From Heterotrichella gracilis (Eukaryota; Sar; Xanthophyceae; Tribonematales; Xanthonemataceae), in contig JAULBX010025275.1 of NCBI GenBank assembly GCA_032358255.1, positions 1 to 64,000 of the forward strand: a DNA stretch of 64,000 bases. Direction: 5' to 3'. The notes under the pieces were generated by a model, which worked only from the letters and a program-made list of their open reading frames with translations, was not told the origin of the DNA and did no database searches. The position numbers and the translations under genes are program-made. Of the stretch, positions 1,535 to 50,966 are shown one piece after another (position 1 is the stretch's first letter; the number at the start of each line of letters is the position of its first letter).

Positions 1535-4500
1535 TCACATGCAAAAATAGCAGTTTGGCTTTACCATACTCACATTACGCACGTAATCAGATCTCACCTG
1601 CTGGTACTCGCTCCTATATATGTGCCTGGTGCGCATGTGCAGCAGCGATGCGCACCCCACCACAGCTGACTGCAGGGCCAGAACCACCAGGAAGGTCGAC
1701 CTGCAAGGCAGCAAACTCCCAATTTGCAAAAAACGGGGCTTTACAAGGGACGCACAGCAAATTGACCAAGCAGTCCCAGCACCACAAGTGAGCCTGGCGG
1801 TCCCACCACCACAGCCTGGCAGCATGGAAAGCACTTTCAGAATAGGAAGAGCGGCCAGGAAGTAAACAGCTCGAGTCCCAAACCCTTCACTATGCCGCAA
1901 GGAAGGTCCCAAACCCTTCATAACGTTTCTACGAACGGCAGGCTCGTAACCCTGTAGAATTCTGAGCCTATGCTCTAACAATAGCATTCCCTTGGATTCC
2001 CTAGTAAGGATCAATGCATGCCCAAGAACCCAAACCCTTCACTGGGGCTCACCAAATCACGACAAATGCACCCTCCCCAATCTAGCACCCCCAACCCCCA
2101 CCTGAAGCAGTCCGCCCCCAGGCATGTGTGGTGGTGGCCCCCTGTGGCGTGGTGGCGGGAGAGGGCACGGGAGTACAGCCACCCCGCCAGCTTGGCGGCC
2201 ATGCCAAAGCTTGCGGCTGCTGGGGCGGCCTGTGGTGGGCAGCAGCAGGTGAGGGTTTAGCAGGGTTTTGGATGTTGTTTGGGGACTGAAAGTCGGGTCA
2301 GTGGGAGGGTTTTGGCGGGACTTCTGTCACTCGATATAAGTGCATATGGGCGGCGATGGTTGGCTAGTGGTGTGAGTGCTTTCTCCAGACCAACATTGAT
2401 CGGAAGGCACTGTAGAACTTTGCCCCGAATTTGGGCTTTTGGGCCAAATCAGCGCAATCATTCTCAGCGCGTTATGGCACCACAGAGCGCCAGGCAAAAC
2501 CCCGCACCTGGATTAGGTCGTAGTTGGTGGCAGTGTGCGCATGAGGCGAAACCCCGCACCTGTATGAGATTGTAGTTGGTGGCAAAGTGCGCCAGACCAA
2601 ACAGCTCTGAAGTGAGTGCGGGGACCAGGCTCCAGTGTGCGCCAAACGCAAACCCTAGGGTGGTGGCCACAAGGTAGAGGGAGGGGAGGTCGGCAGCAGC
2701 TGCTATCAGCGCTCCCACAGCCATCAGCACGCTAGCGCCAATCATGAACAGCGGCCTGTAGGGTTCAGGATTTTAGGGTTTTGGACCGGCGAGGGTTAGG
2801 GTTTTTCAGTGTTTGTTTCTACCAAACAAACACACAAAATTTGCAAGGTTTCAGCACGAAAGAAGAGGGTTTCATCTGAGGTTGCCGTGCTTGTGCAGCA
2901 GGGTGCAGGATTGTAAGGTTTTGACTGTAGGGTTTAGGGTTCGCACCTGGGGGTGCCGTGCTTGTGCAGCATGGTTTCCGAAAAGTAGCCCGCCCCCAGC
3001 CTGCCCGCGCAATTGCTGACTGAGAACACAGACACAAACACAACCTGGCCGTCCTTCTGGCCCCCAAGCGCCCGAACGAGCTCAGCTGCAAAGGGGGGTG
3101 GGGATGGGGGGTGGTGGGGTTTTCAGGAGGGGAGGAGGGAGCAGTGGGTGGGTGGTTCAGGAGGGGGTGTCGTGGGAGAATGAAGGGGGTGTCGTGGGGG
3201 GGAGGGGAGGGGATGACAGGGATTTGTTTCCATGACGCGCGATTGCTGACTGACAACACAGACACAAACGCAACCTGGCCATCCTTCTGGCCCCCCCGAG
3301 CTTGCACGAGTTTGGCTGCAAAGGGGCGGTGGTTCAAGAGGGAAATCCAGTGCAGTTGGAGGTCCTAGAACTGGCAGTGGGTGGTTCAGGAGGAGGGGTT
3401 GTGTGGGATCCCCAGGATCCCCAAGGATCTCCAGGATTTGGGAGGGCAGCATGTAACCGACACAGGGGTGAAGGGGTGTATAGGGAAGGGACTGGAGGGT
3501 AATGTGACAAGGCTCCCTAGCCAATGCATGTGCTCCTGTCGGCACATGCAGCCTGTTGGAAAGGAAAAGGACAGGGCATTCCTGGGCCCCACTGCAAGCA
3601 CCTCCACATCCCCTACAACAACCCTCAAACCCCCTTCAAAACCCCTCCAACAACCCCTCCAATCTGTACCTGAGTTGTTGAGGAAAACTAGCGCGGTCCC
3701 CACCCCTATCCCAAACACCGCACACAGCAGCCAGAAATCCAGCGAGGCCAGGCAAGCCAAGGGGGAGAGGTCGGGCATGGACGAAGGGGGGGTGCGGGTG
3801 GGTGAGGGGGCAAGGGGCGCAATCTCCTGTGGAGGTGGGATGCGGTTGTGGGTTTGGGGTTGTGGGTGGTGAGAGCACTCGCACACATTTTGGCAATCTA
3901 ATAGATAGAAAAGTGTAGGGTTGATTGTCTAGGGTTGTGCGGGGTGAGAGCGCTTGCACGAGTTTCCAATGCAACAAAAGAACACCGTGTGGCAAATGGA
4001 ATCACCCATGCGTGGCAGGCGAAACCACATCTTTGCGGGCATGTGCAATCACCCGTGCATATATATAAAGCCACCCATGGCTCATACCAAACCTTCCATC
4101 CACCCCCCACACCCGTCCACCCACCTCGCCTTTGACAGGGCTGGCCTGAAGCTCCTCCCCCTCCTCCACCCCCCTCTTCGCCCCCCCTCCCCCCTCCTCC
4201 CCACCCCCCTCCAGCGGCACCGCATACAGCCCCGGCACTCCCCAGGGGACGAAAAACGACAGGCACGCGAGTAGGAGGCTCCCACAGGCAAAGTAGGTGC
4301 GGGCTGTGTGGTATTCAGGGTAGCGCTGCCCCAGCAGTGCGGTTGCCACTTGGTATATTGCTAGGGCTCCCACAACCTGGTAGAGAAAGGCAAAACGCCG
4401 CCCTGCGGGGGTGCAGGCGATATTGAATGTGAAGAAATGAACATATACATATCTATACAGCTACGTAGCCTGTCCTTAACACGCGCAAAGAGGAGCAATT

Positions 4501-6476
4501 AGCAATTAGGGACGGCAATATCTCTGTCCACGGTGTTCTCTACGATTAGGTGGCAAAACAATGTGATATCGCATGTGTGATACGCCTGTGCTATGCAACC
4601 AGGTGATATGGCATGTGTGATACACCTGGGGTATGGCGGATGCGGCATGGTGCCTGTAATGATGCGCATGCGACCCCACCCCTCCCCACTCCTGTGCCTA
4701 GCGGTTGCTTGCGCATATGTGCACTTCGCCATGCGAACCATTCACATGTGGCCCACAGCGTGTCCATGGCCATGTGACTCAATCATCCCATTGTGACAGC
4801 CCCATGTGACCCTCCCACCCACCACACAGCACACACCTGTGCTGCTACCGCTGCCCCCCTTGGCCCCCTCCGATTGCTCCACAAATGGCACGTGGTTTAC
4901 CAGGGGGGCGCACACAAGGGTGATGGCGGCGGGGAGGACACCCAGGCACAGCACGAATGAGGCGGCGTCTGGGAGGAAGAAACCCTGGTAGAGGGTTGTG
5001 TACACGCTGGCGCTCAGCCCCACAAAGGACTTCATGATCCCCACCACCATGCCTGGCCAGAGAAAGAAATTAACTAACAGGAAGCTGAGAGAAAACAAAA
5101 CGAATAAAAATTGAGACAGGGATACTGGTGGGTTTTGGAATACACCCTAGTAGAGGGTTGTGTACACGCTGGCACTCAGCCCCACTAAGGACTTCATGAT
5201 CCCCACCACCATGCCTCTCCAGAAAAACAAAAGAACAAGTTTTTGATTAATTTGATATCAATAGGGATAATGGTAATTTCTGGAAGAGACCCTGGTAGAG
5301 GGTTGTGTACACGCTGGCACTCAGCCCCACTAAGGACTTCATGATCACCACCACCATGCCTGCGCCGTGTGACAAATATTGATTACACAGGTTTGAACAG
5401 GTGCATTGCTTGAATTGCAGCGGCCGTGAGGCCATGTATGGTGGATGAGTGCATGCATGCATGGTGCACACCTCGCTCGTTGGGAAAATTCCTCAGATTT
5501 GTGGCCACCCCCACGGTGTCGGTGTATGTGCCCCCGTTGCACGCCAGCATGGCGATGAGGGTCAGCTGCCAATAGGACACATAAATCCGCCTGTGGGGTG
5601 GGAATCGGTAGCATACACCTCCGCCACGTCGAACAAGGTGTAACCAAACAAGTTGAGAAAATAAATGTAAGCTCAAATCCCAGGTTGGTCCTGGCGCATG
5701 AGTGCACGACTGGGTTGGCGCTGAACACAGTAGTGCTTGACCAGGGGTGCGTGAACAGGCTGCGGCGAGGCACGTATTGGGCATTTCGCAACGATGGCGA
5801 GCTGTGGAATTTGGTGAGCAATTTTGAATGCATCAAGGGGTTGACAACCACAGCGTTGAGGATTCACCAACGTGCTGGGACAGTGGCTAGGGTTTGTGTA
5901 GGGTTTTGACTCGTACCCGGTGATTGCCGCCCACAGGACGGTATACCCTACTAGGTCGACCACAGCACCGATCCCCAGCACCAGCCTGCACACAGGTGGC
6001 ACACAGTGAGGCCTGGCGTGTGCACCAGCAAGCCAAGCGCTTCACCACTTGCTTTGAATGCGCTGTTTGTTCATGGCTAGGCAGCTTTTTGCAACAGCAC
6101 ACCCAATGCAGCTGTGAAACCCTAGGGGAAACCCTGCAACGTCAAGCAATTCAGGGAGGTGTGCGGTGGCACGCTCCGGCGGACGCATGCACAGCTACGC
6201 AGCTTATGCATGCATGCATCACCACCCGCATATGCATGCGTTGCCTCACCTGGGCCCAAGCTTATGGTGGTGCTCCAGGAAGTCATACACCAGTCCCGCC
6301 GCCAGCCCTGCGTAGCCGCCCAGGTTGCACGCCGAGCCCACGCCCTCCAGTTGCGCTTGGGTGAGGTCAAACCTCCCTTTGAGCTCCTCGGCGTATATGG
6401 AGAAGGTGTATGCCAGTCCGGCTGAGAGCAGTATGGGGGCGGTTGCAGCAAGGGTGTACCACTTGCTCACGTACAT
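1535..6476 (-). CDS. Nodulin-like major facilitator superfamily transporter (10 exons)
   Basis: A membrane transporter of the plant nodulin-like MFS family; the substrate cannot be told from sequence. Exons (minus strand): 6476-6250, 5985-5917, 5590-5472, 5052-4837, 4402-4125, 3826-3670, 3085-2947, 2755-2560, 2229-2102, 1700 to about 1535. All junctions are GT-AG and phases agree throughout. The start MYVSKWYTL leads into the first membrane segment. Family signatures follow in order: YWQLTLIAMLACNGG, NLRNFPNERG joined to MVVGIMKSFVGLS, SLDFWLL, FVSVFSVSN...GYFSE, FGAHW, SELFGLAHFATNYN, TCLGADCFR, and a last hydrophobic segment ending RTRHIYRSEYQQ. About 560 residues, the usual family size. 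The C-terminus is uncertain: either the frame reads to the stop at 1535, or the donor-like GTGAGA at 1597 leads to a further exon. At least three introns hold partial exon copies, listed separately. Confidence 0.87.
2493..2545 (-). repeat. Downstream exon echo of MFS exon 8, direct tandem unit
   Basis: The end of exon 8 (CCACCAACTACAATCTCATA, then CAG) plus its donor GTGCGGGGTTT is followed at once by a second copy (CCACCAACTACGACCTAATC, then CAG, then GTGCGGGGTTTTG). The unit is about 52 bp and spans the exon-intron border, so this looks like a plain tandem duplication across a splice site. Confidence 0.85.
2876..2912 (-). repeat. Downstream exon echo of MFS exon 7
   Basis: A short copy of the last roughly 35 bases of exon 7 (encoding LLHKHG) lies in the following intron. 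It lacks a good donor: CAG is followed by AT instead of GT. Confidence 0.65.
3227..3323 (-). repeat. Upstream exon echo of MFS exon 7
   Basis: Repeats the acceptor (TTTGCAG) and about 85 bases of the 5' part of exon 7 (3085-2947), encoding GGQKDGQVAFVSVLSVSN, then breaks off into unrelated G/C-rich sequence. It lies in the intron before exon 7. Confidence 0.8.
5145..5362 (-). repeat. Two upstream exon echoes of MFS exon 4
   Basis: Two copies (about 5145-5216 and 5287-5360) repeat the first 70-75 bases of exon 4 (5052-4837), encoding MVV.IMKSLVGLSASVYTTLYQG, each preceded by an AG acceptor. Both diverge into intron sequence before the exon ends. Only the copy at 5052 continues into the rest of the exon and ends in a usable donor. 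Spacing is about 145-165 bp. Confidence 0.85.
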
Positions 6477-8329: not shown

Positions 8330-11300
8330 GCTGCTGGCTGCACCGATACCGGCGACCCAACCAGTGCAGCCAGGGCGCTATTTGTTCTTCCGCACCGATC
8401 ACGATGGCTTCAACAACCAGCGCATCGACCTGTACCACGCGGTGTGGTGGGCCAACCACACCGACCGCACCCTCGTGCAGCCTGAGGTGATTGATGTGTT
8501 GTAGTTAGGTACTTGGTTACATGCATTCCAGGAATGCAGCCAGATGAGCAGTCAGGCGTGCACATGCGGCGCCACGCAGCTCTTTCCTGGCATTGTTGAA
8601 CCACCTATTGATCCCACGCGACTTGAGGTCCTGCTGGAGAAGGTCAGATGTGGCTTTGCTTCATGATTGAGATATACATCGCATTTATGAAGCATCCCAC
8701 ATCACGTGTCACTCGCATCTATGTGGCATTGTCATGCCATGTCATGCCAGGGGACATCTGTCACGTGTGAATTGACCAGCGTACAGTGGTAGCTTCTGTG
8801 TCATGACCGCATTGCGCATTTCAGACCTTTTCCAGCAAGACCTCAAGTCGCGTGGGCTCAAAAGGTGGTTCAAACAGTGCCAGGAAAGAGCTGTGTGGCG
8901 GCAAGGATGTTATTCGACAGTCACATTCAGGGAGCCAACCCAAGCTCACAAGACATTTTTTTTAACTTACTGTATTTATCCATGTATTTATTCATTTGTG
9001 TTTGCCTGACACTGGCGAATTGCAGGTGCTGGAGGACTTTCAGTATGGGCACAGGAACTACGACCACCACTACCCGCTGGCTGACTACTACAATATAACC
9101 CTACTGGACCAGGTAATGGCTCACCCTTCCCTCCCCTTTCTTTCCCCTGTCTTCTCCCTTTCAAGCTGGCTAGGGAGGTGCGTGGGTTGGAACTGTCGCA
9201 GGATGTACATTCACCAGCCAGAGGACCAGCTGCAGCCGACTCTCATCCCAATAAAAACACCATTCAGGCCGTGTTTCCACTGTGCCATATAATCTCCCAT
9301 TTTCAGATCGAAAAATTTCCTCAATTTGTACGATCCTGCAGCGCCCCACCTTAAACATGATGTTCTGCATTTCTTGCCCTCGCCTATATTAAAGCTTTAT
9401 GCACTGGACCAGGCACTGCCCAGGGGGAGCGTCAGCATGGAAAATTTCCGTCGTGATGTATAAATATTGTAATATAATCATTGTATAATTTAATCATGTT
9501 GTTTCTTATGCACTGGCCCAGGCACTGCCCAGGGGGAGCATCAGCATGGCAGATTTCCTGCTCCAATGCAATGCAACCTTGGAGCTTGCAGTCGTGAATG
9601 ACAACCACTGCCACTCGAGCAGGAACGCAACAGGATCTGCTGCCGCGACAGGCCAAGGTGGGTGCTCAGAAAGAACGAAAGAAAAGGAGAAAAGGGGCCG
9701 CCAGATGCGGAGTTAGGTGGCCCACTGGCTCCCACCAGAGCACCAAAACCATAACAGTATCCCTCTCATGAACAGGAATGTTTGAAACGCGAAATGATTT
9801 GGCTGTTTAATTGCATATAGTAGTCTTCACATCTTATGTATTACCCAATGTACCAAAACCCTGTAAACACCCAAAATTGGTACGGTCCGAGCAGTGTGAA
9901 ATCTCGTTAGAGTGACGTTAAGCCTAATCCCTAACCCCTAACTCTAAACGCTAAAAAATATCAACTCGTAGCCTGTTGCTGCCACAGGCCAAAATGGGAC
10001 CCAAGCGCGCTGCCTGGTCCATTGGGACAAGCTGGAGTCTAGGCTCCACCTGCATGGGGAAGTGCCTGAGACGTCAGTTCACGACTTTGTGACAGGGGAG
10101 TATGACACAAGCCTGCGGTGCGTGGGGTTCCTGGCAGGAACTTCCAAAGCCAGACCCAAGGAGCTGGGCGTCTACTCCCGCTACAATGGCCCAGAAGGCT
10201 ACCAGGTGATTGCCAGGGGGTGCTAGCTTGCAAGGCTGTGTAGGGTTGCTAGGGTTTAGGGTGTGTGTGGTAGGCTTGCCTTTGCCGGGTGTTGTTCTTT
10301 TTGTCACCCCTGGGATTGGGCTACTTCTCGGGGACCTGTTTGCTATTGCGCATGGGCGCGCATGTATTCTCATGCTACCAATAAAACAATGTCAGCTCAT
10401 GCTATAAGCAATATTGTGTTCTGTTGTGCATTATATATATGACCCCTTATGGTATATGAGAGTCTTGCATCCTCATGCATATTCGCATTTACAGTCACGT
10501 CTGCATCCACATCCACACCCACATCCACATCCACATCCACATCCGCTTCCACATCCACATCCACATCCACATCCACATCCACATCCACATCCACATCCAC
10601 ATCCACATTCACGTTCTCATTCTACCAGGGGTACCGGGCGGATGAGAACGAGGTGTTCCGCTCCATTCGGAGCCATGTGGATGCACGGGAGGACTATTGG
10701 AAGGAAGCCAGAAGGTACCTGGGGTCGCTCCCAGGGGGGTGTTGGGCAATACACCTGCGCCTGGGGGACTACATCAACACGCACTGCAAAAAGTGAGGGG
10801 CCAACTACCTTGCCTGCAAAACCTGCAAAGTAATTGCCTTGCTTACAGTTGATTGCAAATCATACGATTGATGGGTTGATGTATAAAATTGTTGATTGCA
10901 AAGGGTCTGCTCTATGCATGTGTATGCTAGCCAGCCTGGGCACTGTTTAGGGTTAGGGCAACAATAATCACCCATATTCCTGCCTGCAGTCACAGTTACA
11001 GGTACATTGAAATGCAACACAGGCACATACAGTTTACACTTTGTACCGCTTACCACTAAGTACCGCTTTTTTGCAGCTGGGCCAAGTTCAAACTGGCATC
11101 CCCAGACCAGGCCTGCCCCTCCTACCAAAACGTGAGCGACTGTGCATCCCTGGGAGGCGCCCCCTGCTTATTCGTGGCCACAACCAAACAAGACATCCCC
11201 GAGGTGAAAAACCAGCTGGCTACATACCTGCCCCACACACCCGCATTTTTCTACCAGCCCACGGGCCAGACACCCAGCCTGGACCTGGGTGAGCGTGTGG

Positions 11301-20288: not shown

Positions 20289-23200
20289 TCAGCTCACGCT
20301 TGCCGCCAGGCAGGATGCATGTGCTGTGAGCAGCTTCAGCGCTTGCTCGGCCCTGGCGCGCGCCCTGGCTGCCGCCACCCACTCGCTCACAGCCGCCTCG
20401 GCAGCGGTGCCCCTGCATGGGCGGGGGTTGGGGTGGGGTGAGGTGTGTGGCCCAAGCGCAGCCAGCACACTGCCATGCGCAGGGTAGGGTGATGGAGAAG
20501 GGTAATGGGGCTGCTGCAGGGGCGTGGGGACCACCCAGGGCGGCAAGCACGTCACAAAGTAAGGATACGCTGTGGTTGGACGGGGAATGGGCCCACCCCC
20601 TCAACAGTCCACCCTCCAGCCTCCCTCCCCGCCGCCCCTTTCAGTACCCTTCCCCCAACCCTTCATCTTAAACACTGAATACACCCACCTTGCGCTGTCC
20701 TCCAGTGCCTGCGCAGCTTCCAGGAGCCTTCCCGCCACCAGGTGCCTCTCCACCGCCGCCAGGCGCGCGCTGGGGCTGCCCTGGGGATCAGGCACCTCCC
20801 ACACCTGCAGGGGGCAGGGTTGGGATTGAAGGTTGCAATTAGGGTTCATGAAGAGCCTGAAAGCCGCCCCAGGAGGCCTCTGGCCACCCCCTGGACCCTA
20901 AACTTGGATACAAGCCAAACACCAAAGTCATGAATGAGGCCGCACAGCAAATGCCCACTGCAACTATGCATTCAGAGACCCTAGGTGCAATCGTATCCTC
21001 GTGACCCCAGCTTTCGTTACATAACCTTGCCTAGGGTTTAGGGTTCTGGGATTCAAGGTTGCCCCTCACCGTTAGCCTGGATGCGATCCCCGCCAGCGCC
21101 AGAGCCAGCACCCCCCCACCCCCCTCCGGCACCATACCCAGCGCCAGCACCCTCCGCCGCACAAGTGGGAACCGGTCCACTAGCTGCGTGAGGGTGGGGG
21201 GTGGGGTGGTGGTGGTGGGGTCTGGGAGGGATGCGACTGCTGCCTGGACAAGGGGGTCGTCGGGGAGGGCCTGCGGAGGGGAGGGAAGGGGGGTTGAGGG
21301 CGGATGGGGGGGAAGTGGGTGTGGGAGTGGCGGTGCACACTTGGAATCACCAATGTGAGTGAGAAATGCATAGCCCTTTTCGAAATAAGTGCTGCAGCGG
21401 GTACCCTTGTCACTGACACATCCAGCAACTTGAAGTGCTTAGGCGTTGCGTGGTCGTCCTCGCCTGTGTAACAACCTCCACCCCACCCCACCTATTTCAA
21501 AGACACAACCTCCCTCCCGCACCCCCTTCCCCTGCTCCAGCCCTGACCCACAGCCAGAGCCCCCAGGGTCGGCCGGCGCACCTCATAGCCTGGCTCAGGA
21601 ATTACCTCCCACACCATCCCCACCTAGGCCTCCACCAAACCCCCCACCATCTCCCTTTACCACCACCCACCACCCACCACCCACCTGCTTGAGGAACGCC
21701 ACCTCCCTCCCGCACCCCCTCCCCTGCTCCAGCGCCTGGCCTACAGCCAGCGCCCCTAGGGTCAGCCGATGCACACCATGGCTGAGCCGCGCGCCCTCGC
21801 CCCGCGCCTCCAAACCCTGCTTTAGGGCATTCACCTGACCCCGCACCTGGGCCAGCTGGTTGGTCCGGTAGGCGCGCTCCTTGGCGGCCGCCTGTGGGGG
21901 TGGGGGTGGGTGTAATGGAGGGTGTGAGGGGAGAAGCTCTGAGGTGGGGTAATGCTGACGGGAGTTTTGAACTTACGTCCGCATCCACCAGCACCAGGTA
22001 CCTCGCCCACACCTTCCCGGTACTCTGGACTTCAATCCAGCCACACTCTAGCTTAGGAATTACCCTAGGTACTCCCTAGCTTATGGTTCGAATCCACCTC
22101 CACCAGCGCTTACTCCCTTCCAACACCCTAGCGCTAAACCCTGCGACCCACACCCTAGCCTAGGGTTTCACCTCTGCCACGGCCAGCACCAGGTACTTGG
22201 CCTGCCTTGCAAGCTCCTGCTCCCGCTGCCTGTCAGCCAGCCACACCCTAGCCTAGGCTTTACCTCCACCCCAGCATACGCCAGACACCACACCTTCCTA
22301 CTGCCCCCGCCAGCCCCTCTCTAGACTTTGGCACAACCGCAATCACACCCTAGTCTAGGGTTTTACCTCTGCTGCAGCCAGCGCCAGGTACTTGGCCTGC
22401 CTTGCAAGCTCCTGCTCCCGCTGCCTGTCAGCTAGATGCTGCTGCTGCCGCATGGCACCCGCAACCTCCTCCACAGCCGCCATGGCGCGCGCGTCTGCAT
22501 CCTCAACCAGCGCGTGGGCGGCGGCCACTGCGCCTTCAAGCTTGCGCCGCTCCTCCTGTGAGGCGGGAAACGGCAGCTGAGGGTTTTGCCAGGCCATCAA
22601 TAGCCTTTGTGCAGTGCACAGGGGACTGGTGTGGGGATTTGCGGTGTGTAGAAGGGGTTACACCAGAGTGTTGTTGTTGGCGACATGGGTCAGGGGGGCA
22701 GCTGCAGAGTTTCGGATTTTCAATTTATCACGCCAGCTCTGGACGGTTTTTTCTGTTAGTTTTCCCCACCTGCTGCTTCTCCTCCGCAGCAGCCAGCACC
22801 TCCTGCAGGGTGAGTGCGTCCTCCGCTGCCTGGCGCACCCGCGGCTCGTACTCCCCCCACTCGAACGCCGCCTTGTGGCGGGCGATGGCACGCGAGACCA
22901 GCTCGGCGGCGGTCAGGGGAAGGGGGCCCGTGGGAGCCTGCAGGGGAGTGATGTGAAATGTGATTAGGGATTGGGGCCTAGGGTTTAGGGTAACATGTGA
23001 GGAAATGGGATGAAGGTAAGCAGGGAGGCCTTGCGTGTAGTGTACGTTACATCCATCCCCTTCTGATCCCGAAAAGGTTGAGATTAGCTGATGTCAGTCA
23101 CAGCCTGTGCAGGGCGCATGTGCATGAAGTACTAGGCTATTGGATCCAAGCCAATCACGAGACCACCTGGGGCACATGGCTCCTCACCTTGCGTGGTGGC

Positions 23201-25005
23201 GCCACCCCCTCACTGCTCCCCTCAAGTAATGGTGGTGGTGCATCAGGAACTGCAGCCTGCAGCGTCTCCTGCACACGGATGTGGGCGAAGGCTGAATAAT
23301 CCAAAGGGAAGCAGAAAGCAAAAAGGCACGGCCCAAAGGAGGATCATGCAGGGCATGTCACAGCTTCGAGGTTTAGGGTTTCGGTTATGGTTGACACAGC
23401 TTTGAAGTCAGGGTTGGCATTGCTGTATATGCCAATGGCCACCCAGAGCATGCCCCCATGCAGCACCTCCCACCCCCACTACCCTCCTATGCTGGTCAAT
23501 GCTGAGGGTAGGAGGCTGGCTGGCACCCCACATGCTGGCATCCCTTATCGATAGCCCCACCCCAAGCCCCGTCTCAAGGCCCATGCACGCTGGCACCACC
23601 CCCTTGGCCCCCATGCTGGCCACCACCACACCGGCACCACCCCCACCCCCCACCTGTAGGCCCATGCTCACTGCCGCCTCCCCCACAGTGCCTGCCACCC
23701 CCTCCTTCATTGCAATGAGAGTCTCCTCCACTTGCCTAGCCTCAGCAGATGGACCTGGTGGACACAGGCACAGGGGTGGTCATGTGATCCTCTGGTGGCC
23801 ATTGACTGCCTGCCAGAACAACAAGCGGTCCAACTGATGGCAGGTGCACGTGTTTATCTTCAAATGGACTTTGTTCCAGTACATGAGGCTTGCATAGTGA
23901 CTATGATATTCTTCGTTGTTCTTCAGTCAACATCGATAATTTGAATAACAGCAGCGATGCCAGAAGAGCTCTAAGATATCGCAGTGATGTATTGAATTCC
24001 TCCTGCTAGCAGATGCCCATGGGTTTAGTCCCCCCCCCTGCATTTGTGTGTCTACCCCCCCTGCACACCCCACCCCTCACCTGGCACAGGCGCTGCCTCC
24101 TCTTGCGCTGAGACCAGGCTGCCTGACAGCACATCGTTGATCAACCCAAGCACCTGGGTACCGTCCACATACGTGGCTGGCCCTACACTGGGCGTCAACA
24201 CAACATCTCCGCATCCCTAAGTACCCTATGTACCCTACTTGCACTTCTGACGGCGCCTAATGTGCCGAGTGTGCCCCCCCTCTTGCTCACCTGGCACAGG
24301 TGCCGCTTCCTCCTGAGCTGGCACCAGGCTGCCTGACAGCACATCGTTGATCAACCCAAGCACCTGAGTACCATCAACATATGTGGCTGGCTCTGCATCA
24401 CCCTCAGCACCCGTCTCACCCGCCCCCTCGACCTCCCCTGTGGCTGCCTCGCCCTCTGAGGGCTGCTGTTGGTGGGTGGTGGGAGGTTCCGCCTCCGGTG
24501 GGGGGTGGGGGATGGTGTCCGCCTCGGGAGTGGTGGGGACTGTGGTGGAGGGGGTGGGTTTGGGCTCGCTGGAAGCAAGCGGGGGTGGTTCCTCTTCCTC
24601 TGAAGGTGATGCTTCTTGGAAGCCTGCCCCAGCATATGGGTCCTCAGCAGTGTCTGTTGCCGCCTGTTTTTGAACCGGCTCAGGCTTTTTTTGCAGGCCG
24701 TCCCTGATGGTGATGTAGTAAAAACCAGCCAGGCCCACCACACTCCCAACCACTAGGCGCACGTCGATGGGCACCGAGGGGTGGAGTAGCCATGCGTTTG
24801 GGTTGCTGCCACTGCCTCCGCCGCCTGGCTGTTGCTGGGCTGTGGGGCCAGCTGGGGGTTTTACGGGAGGGGCGAGGGTGGGTGGGGCTGCTGCTGGTGT
24901 GGGGCTGGGGTCTGATGCCTGCTTTGGTGGGACTTGGGGTGCGTTGTGCTTCCCAGCCTGATGTACCCCCTGGGTGATACACGAGAAGAATGACTGCCTG
25001 ACCAC
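20289..25005 (-). CDS. MIC60: MIC60/mitofilin, MICOS core subunit (start exon not found)
   Basis: Inner mitochondrial membrane protein that shapes crista junctions. Exons (minus): about 24985-24291, 23754-23654, 23291-23188, 22937-22770, 22555-22367, 21891-21685, 21270-21070, 20804-20689, 20412-20289. The first has a Pro/Glu-rich region around a single membrane segment (RLVVGSVVGLAGFYYITI), as in all MIC60 proteins. The middle exons are coiled coil (EERRKLEGAV, QREQELARQAKYLALAAAE). The C-terminal mitofilin domain is unmistakable: EGARLSHGVHRLTLGALAVG, LALGMVPEGGGGVLALALAG, RLLEAAQALEDSARG, RARARAEQALKLLTAHA. The initiator ATG and the mitochondrial presequence must lie in a further 5' exon, since a stop precedes the frame near 25007. 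Phase does not match at the 23654/23291 junction, so that border is unresolved. Confidence 0.85.
21505..21597 (-). repeat. Downstream exon echo of MIC60 exon 21891-21685
   Basis: Repeats most of the last 95 bases of the exon (encoding LTLGALAVGQALEQGRGCGR) with several changes, 180 bp downstream, inside the following intron. Confidence 0.8.
21972..22245 (-). repeat. Two downstream exon echoes of MIC60 exon 22555-22367
   Basis: The exon end encoding QREQELARQAKYLALAAAE with its donor is repeated almost exactly at 22245-22172 (reading ARQAKYLVLAVAE) and more loosely at 22012-21977 (ARYLVLVDAD then GTAAGT). Telomere-like or CTAGGGTTT words lie between the copies. Spacing is about 195 bp. Confidence 0.85.
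24081..24182 (-). repeat. Downstream exon echo of the first MIC60 exon
   Basis: About 100 bases of the exon end (24392-24291) are repeated 210 bp downstream. They encode YVDGTQVLGLINDVLSGSLV and AQEEAAPVPG, with the same donor context CCAG/GTGAG. The two copies differ at only a few positions. If used instead of, or after, the first copy it would duplicate about 34 residues, so alternative use is conceivable, but no acceptor precedes it. Confidence 0.85.
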
Positions 25006-25706: not shown

Positions 25707-31730
<6,024 letters not shown>

Positions 31731-37551: not shown

Positions 37552-40500
37552 TCACCCAAACATCTTGGCATAGGCCGCCCTCTCCCTTGCTCGTGCCCCA
37601 TCCCTCCCCTTCTTCACCCGTGCCACCTCCGCCTTGATCCCCTTGTCCTCTGGCTCGAGCTCCGATGCCTGCTGAAGCACTGCCAGGGCCTCGTCATAAT
37701 CCTGGGGGAGAGGAGAGAGGGGCACAGCCACGTTAGGGTTTGTGTAGGGTCTTGCAGTAATCTTCAAACCCCCCAGAGCGTCGCCTCGTTTTACACCAAT
37801 GGTAATAAGATACATACTCACGCAGGGGCAACGAAGCGTAGCCACCACATTCAGGCATGCCTGGGGTGTGTGCAGGGGAGCCCAGTTCAGGCGATTGGGG
37901 CCAGACAAGCTGCAATGGTGTTAGCAGTATGCCTTAGGTGATAGTATGGGCATTGGGCCCACCTGGACCCCTGCGTCGTGCTACATCTGCAAGGGGGTCG
38001 GGGAGAGGCCAGGGTAGGGTCTTGGGTACCCACTTCAGGCCACGTCGCCACCCCACTTACAACCTAACCCCACATGCACATGGTACTCCGCCACAGTCCC
38101 CCACCCCCCCACCCACCTTTAGAGCCGCCAGCGCCTGGCCCTTCCTGAACAGCGCCTTGGCAGAGGCTGGGTCCCGCTCAAGCACACTGCCGCACATGTT
38201 CAGCACTTGGTGGTACTGCTGCAGCTTCAGGTGGCAGGCGGCACTGCGGGGGAGGTGGCGTGGGGTTGATCGAGTGAGGGGGGAAACGGGGGACATGTGC
38301 CAGATGGTAGGGCGCGTATGGAGCATGTGACGCCCATGCATGTGACACCATGCCAGGTGGCGGGTGATGCCAGGGATGAAAGTGGTCCCCACATGGCTGT
38401 GACCTTTGACCCGGGGACAGCAACTGTTATACAGAGCCTGGGCTCGAGTAGCGCAGGGCCTTGCTGCAATGAGACATTGCCTTCTCGGTAACCTGACATG
38501 GCTACTTTCCCGGTATTATACAGCAATGCCGCACATGACTGCGCGCGCCCCCCTCCCCCCTCCCCCATGCACCCCACCTGTTGAGCAGCAGCGGCACCGC
38601 CGCATCACCCATGGCTGTAGCTTGCGCAGGTGACAGCAGCTGCGCCATTGAGCCTGGGTTGAGGTAGCGCAGGGCCTTGCCGTAGCGAGACAGCGCCTCG
38701 GCTGCGTCGCCCTGCAGTAAATGGCACACAGGTTGAGGGTCAGGGTTTAGGGTTAGGGGTTAGTGTGCGGGAGTTTGGCGCAGCGAGACAGCTCCTTGGC
38801 TGCGTCGCCCTGCAAGGACCGCACAGAGATTGGGGTTAGGGTGTAGGGTTCCAGAATGAGGGAATGTGGCGTAGCGAGACAGCGCCTCAGCTGCGTAGCC
38901 CTGCAGGGGGAGCAAATGGGTGGGGAGTTCGGGGTGCGGCCAAACACCACCGCACCGCCATCCCCGCCACCACACACCACCCCAAGCTTGGAGATGGTGT
39001 GCGCATTGAGGGTTGTGGCTGCCGACACATTCCGCTTCCATTGCTGGGCTTGCACCCAATACAGCACGCAGCAATTGTATCCACAGCTTAATGATGGAAG
39101 CCATTTGATATGCCTGCACCTCCAGGGTGGAACCGCGCCCAATCCCAGGGAGGCATGCAGGAGCTGCTGGAATCTGCTAAAATGCATGGAAACGATGTAC
39201 AGTCATGGAAACGATTGTACAGTTCAGGGGACGCATTCCCTCCCCACCTGTTTGAAGTATTGGTTCCCCTTCTGCCTGATCTCCTCGGCTGCCCTCATGC
39301 GCCATGCGTACTCCTCCTCGCCATCGCTGGGGCCACTGGCGTCCTCGGGCCACACAGGGTAGGGGTCGCCCTCCTACGGGGGTGGGGGAATAAATGTCAA
39401 CATGTGTAGGGGAGGGGGGGGTTGCTGCCCTCCAGCCCCACAGGGTAGGGGTGCCCTCCTACAGGGGCAGGGAGAAATTGAGAAGAAATGTCAAAATTAC
39501 AAAGGATGTTGGGGTCGTGCCACTCTTTGGCCACAGGGTAGGGGTCGCCCTCCTGTCCAGGGGGTTTGGGGGTTGAAATGGAAACAAATGTCCACATCCG
39601 GAGGACGTCAATCTTCCCCAAAATTCTTACCTCCCCAGGGGGGTTCAGATACTCCTCTTCCTCCTCCTTGGGTATGTGCCCACATGCAGCAATCACGCAT
39701 GGCTTGGTGGGGGCATCTCCCGCACCAACGTCCCCCTCCTCGATCTCCTTCACCACCCCATATCCCCTCAGCACCTGGGAAAGAGGTGCAGGTGGGAGGA
39801 AACTGGGTCTACAACTGAAAACAGGCAGACCAAAACAGCAAAAGCAGCTTTCGAAGACCAGAGATCATGCCAGGTACATGTATACTATCCTTCTCATTCT
39901 AAGCCAGGAACATGTTCAATTTTAAATGTTTTAACAAAAATCCTAATCTCCCTCTCATGCTTATTGTTGTTCACAACTTTTATGTAAATGTACCTAACAT
40001 TTCTATTCTCACCTGGCCAAACACCACGTGCTTGTCATCCAGGTGTGGGGTGGGCACTGTGGTGATGAAGAACTGGCTGCCATTGGTGTTGGGGCCAGCG
40101 TTGGCCATGGATAGTAGGCCCGGGCGCTCGTGCTTTATATCAAAATTCTCATCCTCGAACGTCTCCCCGTAGATTGACTCTCCCCCCCTGCATGGAGGTG
40201 GGTACGGGTGGGTGGGTGTTGTGCAGGGGTCTGTCACAGTCGGCCATGGGATGTTGCTGTAATGGCTAGTTTGAATGCTGCAAAATGCTGTAAATGATAG
40301 TTTATTTCCAATTTCTGGCTGTGGATACAGATGCTGTCCAACAGAGAGCGTAGAAAACCAACTGGACACTGGATCAGTGGTGTATTCACCTCCGTGCGGG
40401 TGGCCAGAAGGATCTGTGCACTCACACTCACGTTCCATTCTTAGCTGAGAAGTCCCCGCCCTGGATCATGAACTTGGGGATGACTCTGTGGAAGGGGCAG

Positions 40501-42538: not shown

Positions 42539-45500
42539 TCACAGCTCGCTTTTTGGCTTTCGGGACGCTGCCATGGCCATGTGCTCTGCCACCAGCTGGT
42601 CCTTCTTGGCAGCCGCGTAGGTCTTGACCATGGCCGCCAGGGCGCCAAAGGCCTTCTTGCTGGCCGCACCCACAGCCGCGCCCACCTGGAAGCATGGATG
42701 TTAGAGTTCATTATCATTCCAAGAAAAAATGGGGTTTAATGCTAATCACTAGGGCAACGTGGGCTGACCTACTCCAGCATGACCTCAAGTCGCGTGGGAT
42801 CAATAGATGGTTCAAGCAGTGCCAGGAGAGAGCTGCGTGGCGCCGCATGTGCAAGACTGACTGCTAATCTGGCTATTTTGCTGGAATGCATGTAACTAAC
42901 TAACTAACTAGGCGACAAGGTTTTTTTTACTTCTTTGCTAATCATTATTCCAGCTCAAATGCAGGGTGCGTCAGTCGATGTAAACCACAGCTAAAAGATG
43001 TTTTTTTGCTGTATATTAAAGCCCACGTACTCCAGCATGACTCTATGCAGAGTTGCGCGCACGGCTTTTGTCATTGGTGCCCCCACCTTTTCCGCCTTGA
43101 CATGCGCCTCGCTCTTTGGCCTGTCCGCTTGCACCAGGAACAGCTCCTCCAGGCTGGACACATCCTCCTGGTCAGACGCACCCTGCGCAGAGGGTAAGCA
43201 AGTGGGTGGAGCAGGGGGGATTAAGGTCAAGGTGGCTGCAGTCCTGGGGTTCATATGATCCACCATGGGCATCCTCCTCGTGAGCGCATGCATAGGTTTT
43301 GTACCTTCAACCGTCAACCATAAACTTACAACCCACTTCTCCACTCACCAGTCCTTGAAGCCATGTCGCAGGTCCATGGCCAGGCTAAATCCCAAACCCT
43401 AAACCCTAAACCCGAAACCCGAAACACACGAACCCCAAGCACCAGTCTCTGCCAGCCATGTGGCGGATCCATGGCTAGGTTAAACCCTAAACCCAATACA
43501 CACAATCCGCACGCGCCAGTCCCTGCCAGCCATGCCGCAGTTCCATGGCCAGGTTAAACCCTAAACCCTGAACTCACAAACTCCACGCACCAGTCCCTGC
43601 CAGCCATGTGGCGCGTCCATTGCCAGTCCGTGCAGGTGCCCCTTGACCTTCTTCTCATACACAAGGATGGAGTGGTCAAGCAGGGCGCCACCATTGCCCA
43701 TCTGCGCACTGAACGACTTCCACACCTACGACACGCAGCTCCAGGTCAGACACAGAGGGTAGGGTTTAGGGTTTAGGGTTTGGGTTTACACCAGTATGGA
43801 GCGGTCAAGCAGGGCGCCGCCGTTGCCCATATGAGCACTGAAACACTTCCACACCTGCAGCACGCAGCTCCCAGGTCAGACACAGAAGTAGGGTTTAGGG
43901 TTTGGGTATGACTCTCAGGTATAAACAGAACAGAGCTGCTTGGCGCCGCATGTGCAGGATTTGACTGCTAATCTGGCTGCATTGCTGGGATGCATGTAGC
44001 TGGGTATGTTGACCAACATACCCAGCACTGCCCTCCTACCCTCCACCCACCACCACCCGTCCTGACAGCCCTCCAATACCGCAATCCCATGCCAGCATCT
44101 ACACGAAGCCCCCATCCCCCACACCCTTACCTGGCGCACATCTAGGTTTTTCGCAACCTCCCCTGCATACTTTGCATCCCCTATCCTCCCCTTGGAGCTG
44201 GGGGCATCTGAGCCCCCCGGCAGCAGCGTGCGGATCGTGTCCCCAATCACAAAGTGGTAGGTGCCAAAGGGTTGATAGTGGTAGGCGATGCCTTTCACGG
44301 CCTGCAGAGATGATACGAGAGATGGGACACAAGGGTCTTGACGCAAGGTTTTTGTGCCAAGTCATCTTGAGTGATGGGGATGTACGACTCTGCAAACGTT
44401 TGGATGTGGGCTTTAGGGATTAGGGTGTAGGGTTCACCTAGAGAATGGGGATGTACGACTCTGCAAAGATGTGGGCGTTGGGTTTAAGGTTTCAGCGTTT
44501 AGGGTTTAGCGTTCACCTTGAGAATGGGGATGTACGACTCTGCAAAGGTGTGTATGGAGTCCAGCGCACTGCCCAGCACCCGAGGTACGATGTCAGCGTT
44601 GTTGACAAAGTTGTGGAACTGGAGGCGCCCTGCATAGGCTGGATGCTGCTCCAGGCGTTGCAGGGAGGCATACAACGTGGATGGAGAGGGGGAGTGGATG
44701 ACCATGGGGGCGCCAAAGGTGATGACTCCGCCGCCTGCAGGGTGGGGGATTGGGGTGGGTGTGTGGTACAACAGGAGGGATATCGAGAGGCGTATGTGGG
44801 GGCGCCGAAGGTGATTGCCACCTGCATGGTGGGTAAAGGGGTGGGGGCAGTGTGAAGGGTTGTACATGGAGTCTTACAGGTGGATGGAGAGGGCATGTGA
44901 ATGAACATGAGACTTTGTCCTAAATGCCGACTTTGTCCTAACACTGGCGTTTGGTTGTAAAATGTACAAATTATGTGCTTCAAAATTTAATCTGTAATTT
45001 TAAATTTGTTTGAAGTCACTTGTATGCGACAATACCTGTTGCAAATACTCCGCCCATCTCCACCGGGTGCGTGAGCACATGCAGCATCAAGGCATTGGCG
45101 TAGCCGCCGCCCAGCGAGTGGCCCGTGATCCACACCCTCGCCGGGGTGTCGCGCTTTTTCTGGTACTCTGTAATGAAGGTGACGATGTCGCCTAGGTTCT
45201 TCTTCAAGCCCTCGTAGAACCCCGAGTGGATGTTGATCTCCACGTCCTCTGCAGGAATGAAATGTGAATATTAGGGATTAGCGTGTACTGTAATTCAATT
45301 CCAATCCTCTGAAGGAATAGATGTTATCATTAGGGGCTGATAATTACTGTCAATTGGATCCCATTGATGCCAGAATGGTGTTGACCACCACGTCCTCTGC
45401 AGGAATTTTAACAATCCCATTGGATCAATGGAGTTTCATTGAACAGCCAATTGACACGAGAACAGCATTCCAGATGGTGGTGCCTCAAAAGGTATCAAAT

Positions 45501-46678: not shown

Positions 46679-46766
46679 GGTGAGAGAATGGTGAGGTACA
46701 GTGCCCAGTAGGGGCAGTGGGATAGGGCGGTGCACCTGAGGGGCTTGGAAGGTTTGTGCAGGAGAT

Positions 46767-47558: not shown

Positions 47559-50500
47559 ATGAACGACTGGGAGGACTGGATTGCCGGGTCAGTCCAATAC
47601 CTGCAAGATAAATCGCTGCTGCGGCGCCTCAGACCGACCATTCCCAGCGACAATGCTGTTGAGGTAGCAATGCATGCATATGGACTGTAACCCTACTTTT
47701 CTGTGGGTTGCCCTTACATGCCACGGCTCATGCACAGGTGGAGATAGCGACAGACGAACTGCAGGCATGGGTTGATGACCAACCGTCACCTTCAGACACG
47801 GCTCCAGACGGTAACATCAGCAATGGACAAGGAGCGCCTCAGGTATCCTTGGCATTAATCATCGGATGCATCAAACATACATGCATTACCACAGTCAATA
47901 CATGGCGCTGCACGCACCCATGCGTGGATATACACCTTCAATTTAAAGCACGAATACCCACCACCGCCACCCAACTGCATGGATACCCACCGCAGCCACC
48001 ACTACCACCACCACCACCACGCACAATCACATGCCTGGACACCACCGCCGCTGAACAGAAAGCGCTCTGCATGTTACATGCGCCAAACTCACCTTCACTT
48101 TTAATTGTACTTTCTCTCTCATCCGACTTTGTCGTGTGGATACAGCGGCTACGCCTCTTCAGCCTCAATGACTACATGGCGCTGTCAACACACCCGGAGG
48201 TGCGAGGGGCAGCCGCAAGGGCAGCAGCACAGGCGGGCATGGGTGAGCCACAGACACTGCAACGGTTCCCTTCTTCCATTGCAGTACCACTTCTGGCAAT
48301 TGCACCTCGCATTAATTGCATTGCAGTACTACTTCTGGCGGATGCAGCTCGCCCTTTGCATTGCAGTACCACTTCTGGCGTTAGTGCCTCTCCCTCTCAT
48401 CCACACCCTTGCCATTCCCTCCCCACATACACTCCTCCTCTGCCCCACCCACGTCATCCCCAACACTGGAACCACCTCATCGCCAATTCACACCCCGCAT
48501 CCATTGCCCATTGCAGGCCCTCGGTCCTCTGCACTGGTTGGGGGCTACACCACCCACCACCAGCGCCTTGAGCGCGCCATTGCACAGCTGAAGGGTGCAG
48601 AGGCCTGCCTGCTCTTCCCCACAGGTAGGCTGCTTTTGTTTTTGTATTTTAATAGTTCCTGCATTTGTATATATAGCTGTTTCTTATTGTTATCACTTTT
48701 GTATATATAATATTTTCATTGTTACTGCATTTGCATTATATTTTTGGTTGTTACTGCATTTGCATTAATATTTTTGGTTGTTACCGTATCGTATTTATAT
48801 CTGCTTTCATTGTTACTGCATTTGTATTAAGATTTGTTATCAATTGTTTCTGGTCTTGTATTTGTATGTGTAATTGTTGCATTTATTGCTATTGCTTTTG
48901 TATTCACGTGTTATATGTGTTTATTTCCCACAGGCTACGCCGCCAACCTGGCGGCCACGGCGGCGCTGTGCGGCAACTCCCACACCGCCATCTTCTCAGA
49001 CGAGCTCAACCATGCATCCATCATCGACGGGTGCCGCCTGGCGGTGCGGGACGGGGCCAAGCTGTGGGTGTACCGCCACAATGACATGGACCATTTAGAG
49101 CAGCTGCTGTCTGCATGCCCTAAAGGTGAGGGTGTCTTAGAGCTGTGTCAAATGGGCATGTCATCACTGCACCCATCATCCAGCGCGGAGAGCACAGCAC
49201 GGCCAACTCTCTAACTCCCTGCGCCCGGGGGGGGGTTGGAAGAACAAAAGGAAAAAATCTACAAAATAACTATTGCGCCTAAAGCACCTCACACCTCGCA
49301 GGCCTGCGCAAGTACGTGGTGGTGGACAGCCTGTTCAGCATGGATGGCGACTTTGCCGACCTGCACGGACTGGTGGCGCTCAGGCGGCACCACGGCTTCA
49401 TGCTGGCCATAGACGAGGCCCATGCAACGCTGGTGTGCGGCGCAAGGTACGGGCCCACGCAGGGTCATGTGCACCAGTCATGTGCAGGCATGTACACTCA
49501 TTTTTGCCCCATTAATGCGCATTTTGTCTGGCATTTCTCTGGACCAATTTGTCTGGCATTTTCCCCCCAATCATGTGCACTCAAGGGCCTGATAGCGGTC
49601 AGGCGGCTGCATGGGTTCACACTGACCACAAAAGGCGCATGCAACGCTGGTGGCGGGTGCAAGGTGCGGGCCCGTGCACATCCTTGTGGGCTTCATGGGG
49701 GTGGTTTGGGCGCTAGGAAATATACGGAAATACTAATGCTAGTACCAGTACACCCCTGGTCGTGTGCAGTAGAGGGCAAGCGCAGCAATGTGCACCCCAC
49801 ATGCACCCACCAACAAGGCGCATGCGGATGCGCCGCAATGCCAACGCATTTACTTCCCCTGGCGGTTGCAGGGGAGGGGGTGCAGCGGAAATGATGGGGG
49901 TGGAGCATCACGTGGATGTGCACATCGGGACCCTAAGCAAGGGTTTTGGCGCCCTGGGGGGATTTGTGGCCTGCAGCTGCCAGGTGAAACAGTACCTGGT
50001 CAACCGCGGCAGGCCCTACGTGTTCTCCACCTCGCTCCCCTTGCCTGTGGTGGCAGCAGCGCAGGCGGCGCTTGATGTGTCCCTCAAGGTGCGCCACCGC
50101 ATTATATTACAGGGTTCTTAGATTTAGGATTGATAACATGCCCTATGTGTTTTTAATCTCGCTCCCACTCCCACTGGCGGCGGCCCAGGCGGGGCTGGAT
50201 GTGTCCCTCAAGGTGCACCACTGCATTTAGGTTACAGGATTCGCAGATATGGGATTCATGACAGGCCCTATGCGCTACATGCCTTTTTGCCAGCCTGCCC
50301 TGTGCTGGCACTGTCATACCATCTCTGAATCCTTTTTTGTTTATTTTTATTACTATAAAATACTACTAGTACTCTTGCGGCCGCAGGATCCCAGCTTACG
50401 CGCCAACCTGTGGGCCAGGGTGCGCCAGTTGGGCGATGCCCTGGGTGTGCCTGCGCAGTCCCCCATCATCCCGCTCATCATAGGGAGCGAGGCAGATGCA

Positions 50501-50966
50501 GTGAGGGCGGCCAATGCCCTGCTGGCACGTGGCTTCCACGTGCCCGCCATCAGGCCGCCGACTGTGCCTGCAGGGACCAGCAGGTGTGGTGTAGGGCAGG
50601 GTAGCGATGGGGCTTGGCCGTGTGCAGGAGGGTATATGTTTGCTGGGATGCCAGATAACTAGTGCATGCATGTATGCTCCAGGCTGCTGGCCAGCTTGTC
50701 TGCAACACACTCGCTGCGTAGGACGTTCATGGGACATTTCCCTTTCCAGTGCATGGTAAAATATGGTATATGTCGATTTGCCCCCCCAGTTGATGATATA
50801 ATTTCTACATAAGGAGAAAACAAGTGCTTGCTGCAGGTTACGGGTGAGCCTATCTGCTGCACACACTGCAGAAGACATCGACGACTTGGTGGCGGCGCTG
50901 CACGAGTGCGGTGTGCAGATACAGGGCACCACTGGTAAAGGCGTAGCCGTGCTGTCCAAGTTGTAG
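47559..50966 (+). CDS. BIOF: 8-amino-7-oxononanoate (KAPA) synthase with peroxisomal SKL signal
   Basis: PLP enzyme that joins pimeloyl thioester and L-alanine in the first committed step of biotin synthesis. Exons: 47559-47663, 47738-47842, 48146-48242, 48517-48624, 48934-49125, 49302-49446, 49872-50088, 50387-50583, 50837-50966. All phases agree; 431 residues. The start [20 protein letters not shown] aligns with plant KAPA synthases. Motifs: [73 protein letters not shown] (Asp about 240, His about 243) and [14 protein letters not shown] (PLP Lys about 274), then AIRPPTVP. The last residues are VLSKL, a canonical type 1 peroxisomal signal. It is not serine palmitoyltransferase or ALA synthase: the plant-type N-terminus and FSMDGD/IRPPTVP motifs fit KAPA synthase. 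Three introns carry exon echoes. Confidence 0.93.
48270..48390 (+). repeat. Three-copy tandem with acceptor-like ends in KAPA intron 3
   Basis: CATTGCAGTACCACTTCTGG recurs three times about 40-50 bp apart, each carrying a TTGCAG acceptor-like end as in the real exon 4 acceptor (CATTGCAG at 48516). No coding match to exon 4 follows. Confidence 0.8.
49597..49690 (+). repeat. Downstream exon echo of KAPA exon 6
   Basis: About 67 bases of the exon 6 end, with the donor, recur 217 bp downstream (GGCGCATGCAACGCTGGTGG then AAG/GTGCGGGCCC, against GAGGCCCATGCAACGCTGGT and AAG/GTACGGGCCC). The similarity continues into the intron. Confidence 0.82.
50139..50225 (+). repeat. Downstream exon echo of KAPA exon 7
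   Basis: Repeats the last 74 bases of exon 7 (CTCGCTCCCACTCCCACTGG, GCGGGGCTGGATGTGTCCCT then CAAG/GTGC), 124 bp downstream. The following intron bases (CACC.CATTA) also match. Confidence 0.9.
50683..50720 (+). repeat. Degraded upstream echo of KAPA exon 9
   Basis: CCAG/GCTGCTGGCCAGCTTGTCTGC resembles the exon 9 start GCAG/GTTACGGGTGAGCCTATCTGC with scattered changes, 154 bp upstream. Confidence 0.5.

Follow-up and report, generated by a model that had tools for sequence, protein, structure and literature searches.

Genes and exon-edge copies in the window

The window analyzed here is a stretch of 64,000 nucleotides (nt) from the xanthophycean alga Heterotrichella gracilis (assembly GCA_032358255.1, contig JAULBX010025275.1, positions 1 to 64,000), corresponding to contig C277 of the 68.5-Mb, 903-contig assembly. 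Seven of its genes, encoding a major facilitator superfamily (MFS) transporter, an O-fucosyltransferase-like protein (O-FucT), MIC60, PRP4 kinase, CYP40, a lipase and KAPA synthase, carry within their introns partial copies of the edges of their own exons. These copies, hereafter echoes, reproduce an exon start with its acceptor (acceptor type) or an exon end with its donor (donor type). The initial annotation had put them at about 30; under a fixed criterion, 34 border-containing copies were counted at 22 borders, all in the seven named genes (MFS, 5; O-FucT, 1; MIC60, 4; PRP4, 10; CYP40, 4; lipase, 8; KAPA synthase, 2). They are listed with window coordinates, strand, exon copied and identity to it, together with one additional array member of PRP4 that lies outside the criterion.

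5137..5231, -, MFS echo, acceptor type, of exon 4837-5052, 91%
5282..5362, -, MFS echo, second acceptor type, of exon 4837-5052, 95%
3236..3332, -, MFS echo, acceptor type, of exon 2947-3085, 86%
2866..2904, -, MFS echo, donor type, of exon 2947-3085, AT in place of GT, 85%
2492..2540, -, MFS echo, donor type, of exon 2560-2755, 86%
9397..9449, +, O-FucT echo, acceptor type, of exon 9522-9657, 92%
24076..24187, -, MIC60 echo, donor type, of exon 24291-24839, 88%
22149..22240, -, MIC60 echo, donor type, of exon 22367-22555, 92%
22242..22284, -, MIC60 echo, donor type, more diverged, of exon 22367-22555, 77%
21472..21589, -, MIC60 echo, donor type, of exon 21685-21891, 79%
26320..26344, +, PRP4 echo, acceptor type, of exon 26472-27198, 92%
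about 29174..29265, +, PRP4 additional array member before exon 29610-29780, local repeat family D2, beyond the 34
29277..29320, +, PRP4 echo, acceptor type, of exon 29610-29780, 82%
29346..29428, +, PRP4 echo, acceptor type, of exon 29610-29780, 86%
29467..29542, +, PRP4 echo, acceptor type, of exon 29610-29780, telomere-like linker, 86%
30471..30521, +, PRP4 echo, donor type, of exon 30102-30390, 75%
30596..30639, +, PRP4 echo, donor type, of exon 30102-30390, 80%
31124..31231, +, PRP4 echo, donor type, of exon 30838-31067, contains gene-finder exon 31164-31211, 89%
31282..31346, +, PRP4 echo, donor type, of exon 30838-31067, 88%
31419..31457, +, PRP4 echo, acceptor type, of exon 31533-31730, 87%
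31446..31506, +, PRP4 echo, acceptor type, of exon 31533-31730, CCCTAAA linker, 84%
39429..39467, -, CYP40 echo, acceptor type, of exon 39248-39373, 88%
39532..39554, -, CYP40 echo, acceptor type, of exon 39248-39373, 100% over 23 nt
38775..38847, -, CYP40 echo, acceptor type, of exon 38578-38711, 80%
38867..38906, -, CYP40 echo, acceptor type, of exon 38578-38711, 93%
45370..45406, -, lipase echo, acceptor type, of exon 45036-45248, 87%
44797..44845, -, lipase echo, acceptor type, of exon 44517-44734, 76%
44409..44473, -, lipase echo, donor type, of exon 44517-44734, 88%
44362..44406, -, lipase echo, donor type, of exon 44517-44734, AT in place of GT, 87%
43787..43894, -, lipase echo, acceptor type, of exon 43591-43725, telomere-like linker, 86%
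43477..43552, -, lipase echo, donor type, of exon 43591-43725, GC in place of GT, 82%
43407..43478, -, lipase echo, donor type, of exon 43591-43725, 83%
43306..43383, -, lipase echo, donor type, of exon 43591-43725, 73%
49586..49673, +, KAPA synthase echo, donor type, of exon 49302-49446, 77%
50137..50248, +, KAPA synthase echo, donor type, of exon 49872-50088, contains gene-finder exon 50189-50212, 77%

The window was compared with 18 nuclear 10-kb stretches (180 kb) from six contigs, picked among contigs known as long. Gene models for PRP4 (10 exons) and KAPA synthase (8 exons, gene end lacking) were built by hand and used to train a small gene finder, which was iterated over the window and the 18 stretches and supplied the models of the remaining window genes and of all genes outside. 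The complete set, hand models included, comprised 48 genes with 362 exons and 314 introns (median lengths 165 and 287.5 nt). Echoes were defined by one fixed BLAST search of exon borders (628 queries) against the adjoining intron. Low-complexity repeats (3-mer entropy below 3.8 bits) were excluded from local-repeat searches, seven stretches of a bacterial-like contig (C331) were left out of the gene statistics, and loci L001-L008 were unused. All results refer to this one genome, and for the simulations described below, sizes and ages were taken from the data set itself.

Comparison of exon borders with their adjoining introns, a check suggested in the initial annotation and here run on the sample, returned 89 exon-containing intron copies, 79 with a splice border and 10 without. 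Echoes were found at 54 of the 628 borders (22 acceptor type, 32 donor type) and in 51 of the 314 introns, that is, in 21 of 75 in the window and 30 of 239 outside, where 45 border-containing copies lay at 32 borders. The same queries gave no match in introns of similar length from other genes, and a single one, lacking the border, in the reverse complement of their own introns. Strong local repeats were direct in 108 cases (6 of them in C331) and inverted in 2; a more sensitive search gave 133 direct and 40 inverted repeats, 34 of the latter being self-overlapping palindromes. These results bear out the claims that the copies face the same way as the gene, adjoin the exon that they copy, span its border and result from a recurrent local process. 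Divergence of the copies from their exons ranged from 0 to 27%. Echoes were present in six of the seven nuclear contigs sampled, with density very uneven between contigs, and echo genes were clustered (p = 0.0005); one contig, C607, had none in 51 introns and little telomere-like DNA. The presence of two species in one assembly was considered as the source of this unevenness and rejected, codon usage and splice motifs being alike across contigs.

Spacers, position and decay of the copies

Plain tandem duplication predicts homology between the DNA that follows an exon and the DNA that follows its nearest copy, and these spacers were compared. They were homologous at 18 of 52 testable borders at p <= 0.01 and at 26 of 52 at p <= 0.05, and non-homologous at 34 and 26, respectively. 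By contrast, simulated plain tandem events matched in geometry and age (624 testable) had homologous spacers in 94% (p <= 0.01) and 97% (p <= 0.05) of cases. Among copies at least 86% identical to their exon, 5 of 24 spacers were homologous (8 of 24 at p <= 0.05), versus 99-100% in the simulation. As spacers are non-homologous in most cases, filler sits between exon and copy: it measured at least 20 nt for 43 of the 54 nearest copies (mean 82 nt; median over all 54, 57.5 nt), an arrangement in which a direct repeat flanks a non-homologous insert. Homology across the whole repeated unit failed overall and held for the minority of 18. Thus, the description of the echoes as local tandem duplications, given in the initial annotation, stands as regards local duplication and falls, for most borders, as regards plain tandem repetition. 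A local template was found for 5 of 40 fillers of at least 25 nt and for 16 of 400 control intron pieces. Simulation of uniform duplication with filler came near the observed make-up of the copies, with an intron share of 0.37 compared to 0.30 observed (Kolmogorov–Smirnov p = 0.03).

The intron remaining behind the nearest copy had a median length of 274.5 nt (minimum 76), and echo-free introns one of 274 nt. Given this full-length intron behind it, the border within the copy looks like a former working splice site. All 79 copies lay at least 45 nt away from the far splice site, a zone into which random positions would place 9.6 (never fewer than 2 in 2000 trials). The smallest distance from echo border to far splice site was 64 nt, and with this cut-off, chosen afterwards because it is the smallest distance seen, the count was again 0 of 79, versus 14.0 expected. 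Adjacent duplication fits these positions, and random insertion is rejected by them.

The frequency with which borders are hit was assessed against a simulation in which duplications fell uniformly on exon edges and introns, were then aged, and were looked for with the self-comparison applied to the real sequence. Simulated detections comprised 223 intron-only and 111 border-spanning repeats (from 449 simulated events of these two classes, another 212 having been left out). In the real sequence, 21 repeats were intron-only (12 inside echo introns, 9 outside) and 7 intergenic, compared to 71 intron-to-border repeats and 54 echo borders. Splice borders are hence hit several-fold above uniform placement. 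That the border is nearly always in the copy follows from the fact that an adjacent duplication must have its extra copy removed by splicing in order to survive; intron-only events would be at least as harmless, so tolerance alone does not explain the excess. Of the two readings offered initially, a process focused on splice borders or merely tolerated there, tolerance accounts for much, and focus is needed only for the excess that remains. G-rich or C-rich tracts were tried as its cause and rejected, since neither G-runs after donors nor C-runs before acceptors were enriched at echo borders.

Mismatches between exons and copies amounted to 124/1288, 106/1282 and 241/1276 at codon positions 1, 2 and 3 (9.6, 8.3 and 18.9%), a pattern made of a flat part contributed by the copy and a synonymous part, the excess at position 3, contributed by the constrained exon. 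Insertions and deletions in the copies shifted the frame in 24 of 29 cases, a stop codon interrupted 6 of 38 ungapped copies, and the spacing from copy to real border showed no three-base bias (26/31/24 modulo 3). GT or AG was intact in 69 of 81 echo sites; if used, 63 of these would bring in an in-frame stop and 4 a frameshift, and 2 would stay open. Coding use of the echoes was rejected on these grounds. In a splice model, 67% of donor echoes and 64% of acceptor echoes scored at least 4, compared to 5.5% of intronic GT and 4.0% of intronic AG, so that echo introns hold strong decoy splice sites; median scores of echoes (5.65 and 4.57) were lower than those of the real sites (6.56 and 7.04). 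Retention of the splice site was about that predicted, by our own arithmetic, from a decay of 9% per site. Echoes therefore look like relics decaying neutrally, with no sign of constraint on site or frame.

Some linkers resemble telomere repeats. The telomere-like 17-mer CCCTAAACCCTAAACCC had 2,437 overlapping matches in the assembly versus 1 for the reversed control, and pure telomere-repeat arrays stand at the start of two contigs (C70 and C140). Short arrays of the species' own repeat also occur away from chromosome ends, as interstitial telomeric sequences do. Coverage by telomere-like 7-mers was about 0.9% in intergenic DNA, 0.3% in exons and 1.6% in echo-free introns, and it was higher in echo introns; in the 43 fillers of at least 20 nt, it amounted to 7.9% of bases. 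At equal intron length, telomere-like DNA was associated with echo introns (odds ratio 3.4, permutation p = 0.0015). It was also present in more of the echo-free introns of echo genes (29 of 97) than of the introns of echo-less genes (20 of 166; p = 0.0005). This pattern, together with the clustering of echo genes and the case of contig C607, suggests that some genes or regions are prone to such repair. Near acceptors, the CCCTAAA orientation prevailed (0.0637 versus 0.0100 in echo introns, 0.0177 versus 0.0055 in others), where it might supply a pyrimidine-rich tract and the branch-point-like CTAA. Small CCCTAG..CTAGGG palindromes resembling head-to-head telomere units occur in introns and flanking DNA, at 22149-22450, 46160-46185 and 19770-19790.

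Origin of the copies

The account that we favour, and hold to be probable, is that echoes are scars of DNA-break repair that duplicated sequence, with filler, across exon-intron borders, and that they were tolerated since splicing removes the surplus copy. Of the two ends left by a break, or by a pair of nicks, one would lie about 10-120 nt inside the exon, counted from the border, and the other within the intron; repair would leave the exon edge, the splice site and some intron on both sides of the join. At the join, tens of nt of filler without homology would usually be taken up, in some cases telomere repeat (TTTAGGG/CCCTAAA). The copy continuous with the exon would retain the outer splice site, which in the gene models appears to be the one in use; the other copy, with a full-length intron still behind it, would become intronic and be spliced out, leaving the protein unchanged and the event neutral. 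The intronic copy would then decay at the neutral rate, and some arrays would expand later as tandem units. A double-strand break is the presumed start, rather than, for example, replication slippage with filler, and telomerase or telomere DNA the presumed source of the repeats.

Several observations sit uneasily with this account. About one third of the spacers are homologous, and a plain-tandem sub-class may therefore exist. A telomere 7-mer was found in only 19 of the 43 fillers, the rest looking like ordinary intron, and at donors the repeat had no clear orientation (0.0294 versus 0.0368), which gives no support to telomerase priming there. The lack of enrichment of G- and C-runs at echo borders counts on the same side. 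The intron beyond the farthest copy is shorter than normal (218 versus 274 nt, p < 0.001), and later deletions are needed to explain it. At 17 borders with several copies, the nearest was the more similar to the exon in 6 and the farthest in 11; outward stacking at the working border would make the farthest copy the most diverged, so that this order does not fit, and later exchange or conversion probably contributed to the arrays. Finally, no empty allele predating a duplication was seen in the one assembly, so the event is a reconstruction: a search for an empty site found no second copy of PRP4, and that for the lipase was swamped by a dispersed repeat, 40 of 826 candidates being scored.

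Plain local tandem duplication by slippage or unequal exchange, followed by neutral decay and involving no filler, would equally predict that copies include the border and have a full intron behind them. It accounts for the homologous third of the spacers and for the units, intron linker included, that are repeated in arrays before the PRP4 exon at 29610, after the lipase exon 43591-43725 and in comparison stretches L028 and L033. The spacer simulations nevertheless refute it as the sole process, unless the turnover of intron DNA is many times as fast as that of the copies residing in it, and we regard it as improbable. Copying of nearby exon pieces to random places in introns is unlikelier still: exon parts up to 95% similar do lie between flanks in which similarity ends after about 10 nt (as at L028 borders 4609 and 7847), but templated insertion of this kind predicts that borderless exon pieces are common, which 10 of 89 contradicts, and it conflicts with the empty zone near the far splice site. 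Recurrent gene conversion from exon to copy, to which we give equally little weight, would keep only the exon-derived part similar beside unrelated flanks and could explain why farthest copies are often the more similar; it should, however, homogenise the linked intron part as well, and the pattern over codon positions agrees with a simple neutral clock, although such agreement is compatible with conversion.

Retention of echoes for a function, whether as alternative coding exons or as splice sites of the alternative or poison kind, has in its favour the high splice scores and the many intact GT and AG. Yet these sites are retained about as decay predicts and score below the real ones, and the frameshifts, stops and unbiased spacing reveal no constraint; the stop or frameshift expected from 67 of the 69 intact sites argues in the same direction, although a poison site would show the same. 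We rate this possibility as low as the two preceding ones. Mobile introner-like elements inserted with a long target-site duplication are a very improbable source. Filler sizes do resemble those of small introns, but 40 fillers compared by eye (not each searched genome-wide) shared no evident sequence, and by eye no consistent AG or GT was seen at the inner end of the copies. Matches of the PRP4 region elsewhere were short and mostly to its GTGG-rich introns, with no family emerging for the PRP4 spacers. An assembly artefact is hardly credible: nothing was found in its favour, and the range of divergence, the evolutionary codon-position pattern and the spread over six of seven nuclear contigs all speak against it.

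A bolder extension of the repair account is conceivable, and we advance it only tentatively. In this algal lineage, exon-intron borders might themselves act as hot spots for break repair that duplicates sequence and is assisted in part by telomeres, and this repair would probably be linked to the transcription or splicing of certain genes; introns would then grow outward by repeated copying of exon edges, the working splice site being shifted and thousands of strong decoys ignored by the spliceosome.

Related systems and other features

No description of exon-edge copies with splice sites inside introns was met in the open-access literature under the terms searched. Tandem genomic duplication was reportedly proposed as an intron source by Gao and Lynch in 2009. 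It is covered, to judge from the portions available, in a review (PMC3443670) and in PMC9860276 and PMC4974935. As described in the accessible part of PMC3443670, that process resembles ours in that the duplication is local and the segment duplicated contains splice sites; it differs in that the algal event spans an existing border, lengthens an existing intron and usually involves filler.

New introns of Daphnia pulex bear footprints of staggered double-strand breaks, and 55 of 90 contain internal direct repeats, according to the available text of PMC4202315. Shared with the echoes, as reported in that text, are the repair of breaks accompanied by insertion, the direct repetition of exon-terminal sequence and repeated intron-lengthening events. 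The Daphnia repeats given there are 4-12 bp long and lie at the opposite end of the new intron (PMC4202315), whereas the algal copies measure 10-120 nt, contain the splice site and lie mid-intron, before a full-length intron. Among the 314 algal introns, 3 attained a score of 24 for the crossed signature of a new intron (null 0), and two of these read as gene-model errors.

In human and horse, interstitial telomeric sequences are inserted at breaks; in the horse, target duplication alone was found at 3 of 66 loci, and at 2 more with deletion and addition, and was attributed to staggered breaks, as stated in the part of PMC7215372 available. Telomere repeats at internal sites, a few of them with direct target duplication in that account (PMC7215372), are shared with the alga. 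In the alga, unlike in the mammals, introns carry a higher density of the repeats than intergenic DNA, and the repeats are tied to duplicated exon edges and are of the plant type. The combination of existing splice borders, exon copies of 10-120 nt and filler is absent from the published cases compared, as far as the sections available describe them.

Extrapolation from the 32 borders in 180 kb gives an order of ten thousand echo borders genome-wide, density being very uneven between contigs. Echoes would provide a datable record of intron lengthening and connect telomere repeats with exon edges through a single repair process. They would further serve as a natural experiment on how splice sites are chosen, in which, in the gene models, the working pair gives the longest intron despite similar sites nearer by. 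They also mislead annotation: at four places in the window (29388-29399, 29502-29513, 31164-31211 and 50189-50212), the gene finder called echo sequence as exons. Outside the window, the exons in at least the models of L032 gene 44 and L033 gene 47 include echo-like pieces, so that exon and echo may have been mistaken for one another in these genes. The predicted proteins of L028 gene 38 (BBE-type), L032 gene 44 (Methyltransf_4) and L033 gene 47 (M24 peptidase) hold a repeated segment, either an echo called as exon or a true exon duplication. Exon-exon repeats in the sample were clustered mainly at L021:6201-7619, which probably encodes a repetitive protein.

Pfam domains in the window genes (Nodulin-like/MFS, O-FucT, Mitofilin, cyclophilin plus TPR, Lipase_3 and protein kinase) agree with the names of six of these seven genes, in the case of PRP4 with kinase only, the name PRP4 being that of the initial annotation. 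KAPA synthase was named by homology, not Pfam: trebouxiophyte green algae rank high among 120 relatives listed, none of them identical, with identities among the matches listed of 62% for Trebouxia, 62% for Elliptochloris and 69% for Coccomyxa (over 82% of the protein). Asterochloris likewise ranks among the nearest named relatives by this protein.

The lipase intron contains, at 42749-42910, a dispersed repeat of about 160 bp, possibly a short interspersed nuclear element or a miniature inverted-repeat transposable element, with at least 39 other places at 93-98% identity, 826 first-look candidates genome-wide and related pieces at 8502-8647, 8824-8900 and 43926-44001. A CYP40 intron holds a perfect 46-bp palindrome at 40753-40798. 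Contig C331 (596 kb; stretches L009-L015), with a GC content of 0.34-0.38 in the seven stretches and long stop-free frames of the cyclophilin family, probably stems from a bacterium present in the algal assembly as contaminant or symbiont; six of its stretches had no local repeats, and the seventh had 6 direct repeats spaced about 550 nt apart. Diverged local duplicates in the window form a direct pair (15010-16135 and 17300-18440) and a set of three, one of them inverted (51769-53340, 56509-58211 and 60085-61807).

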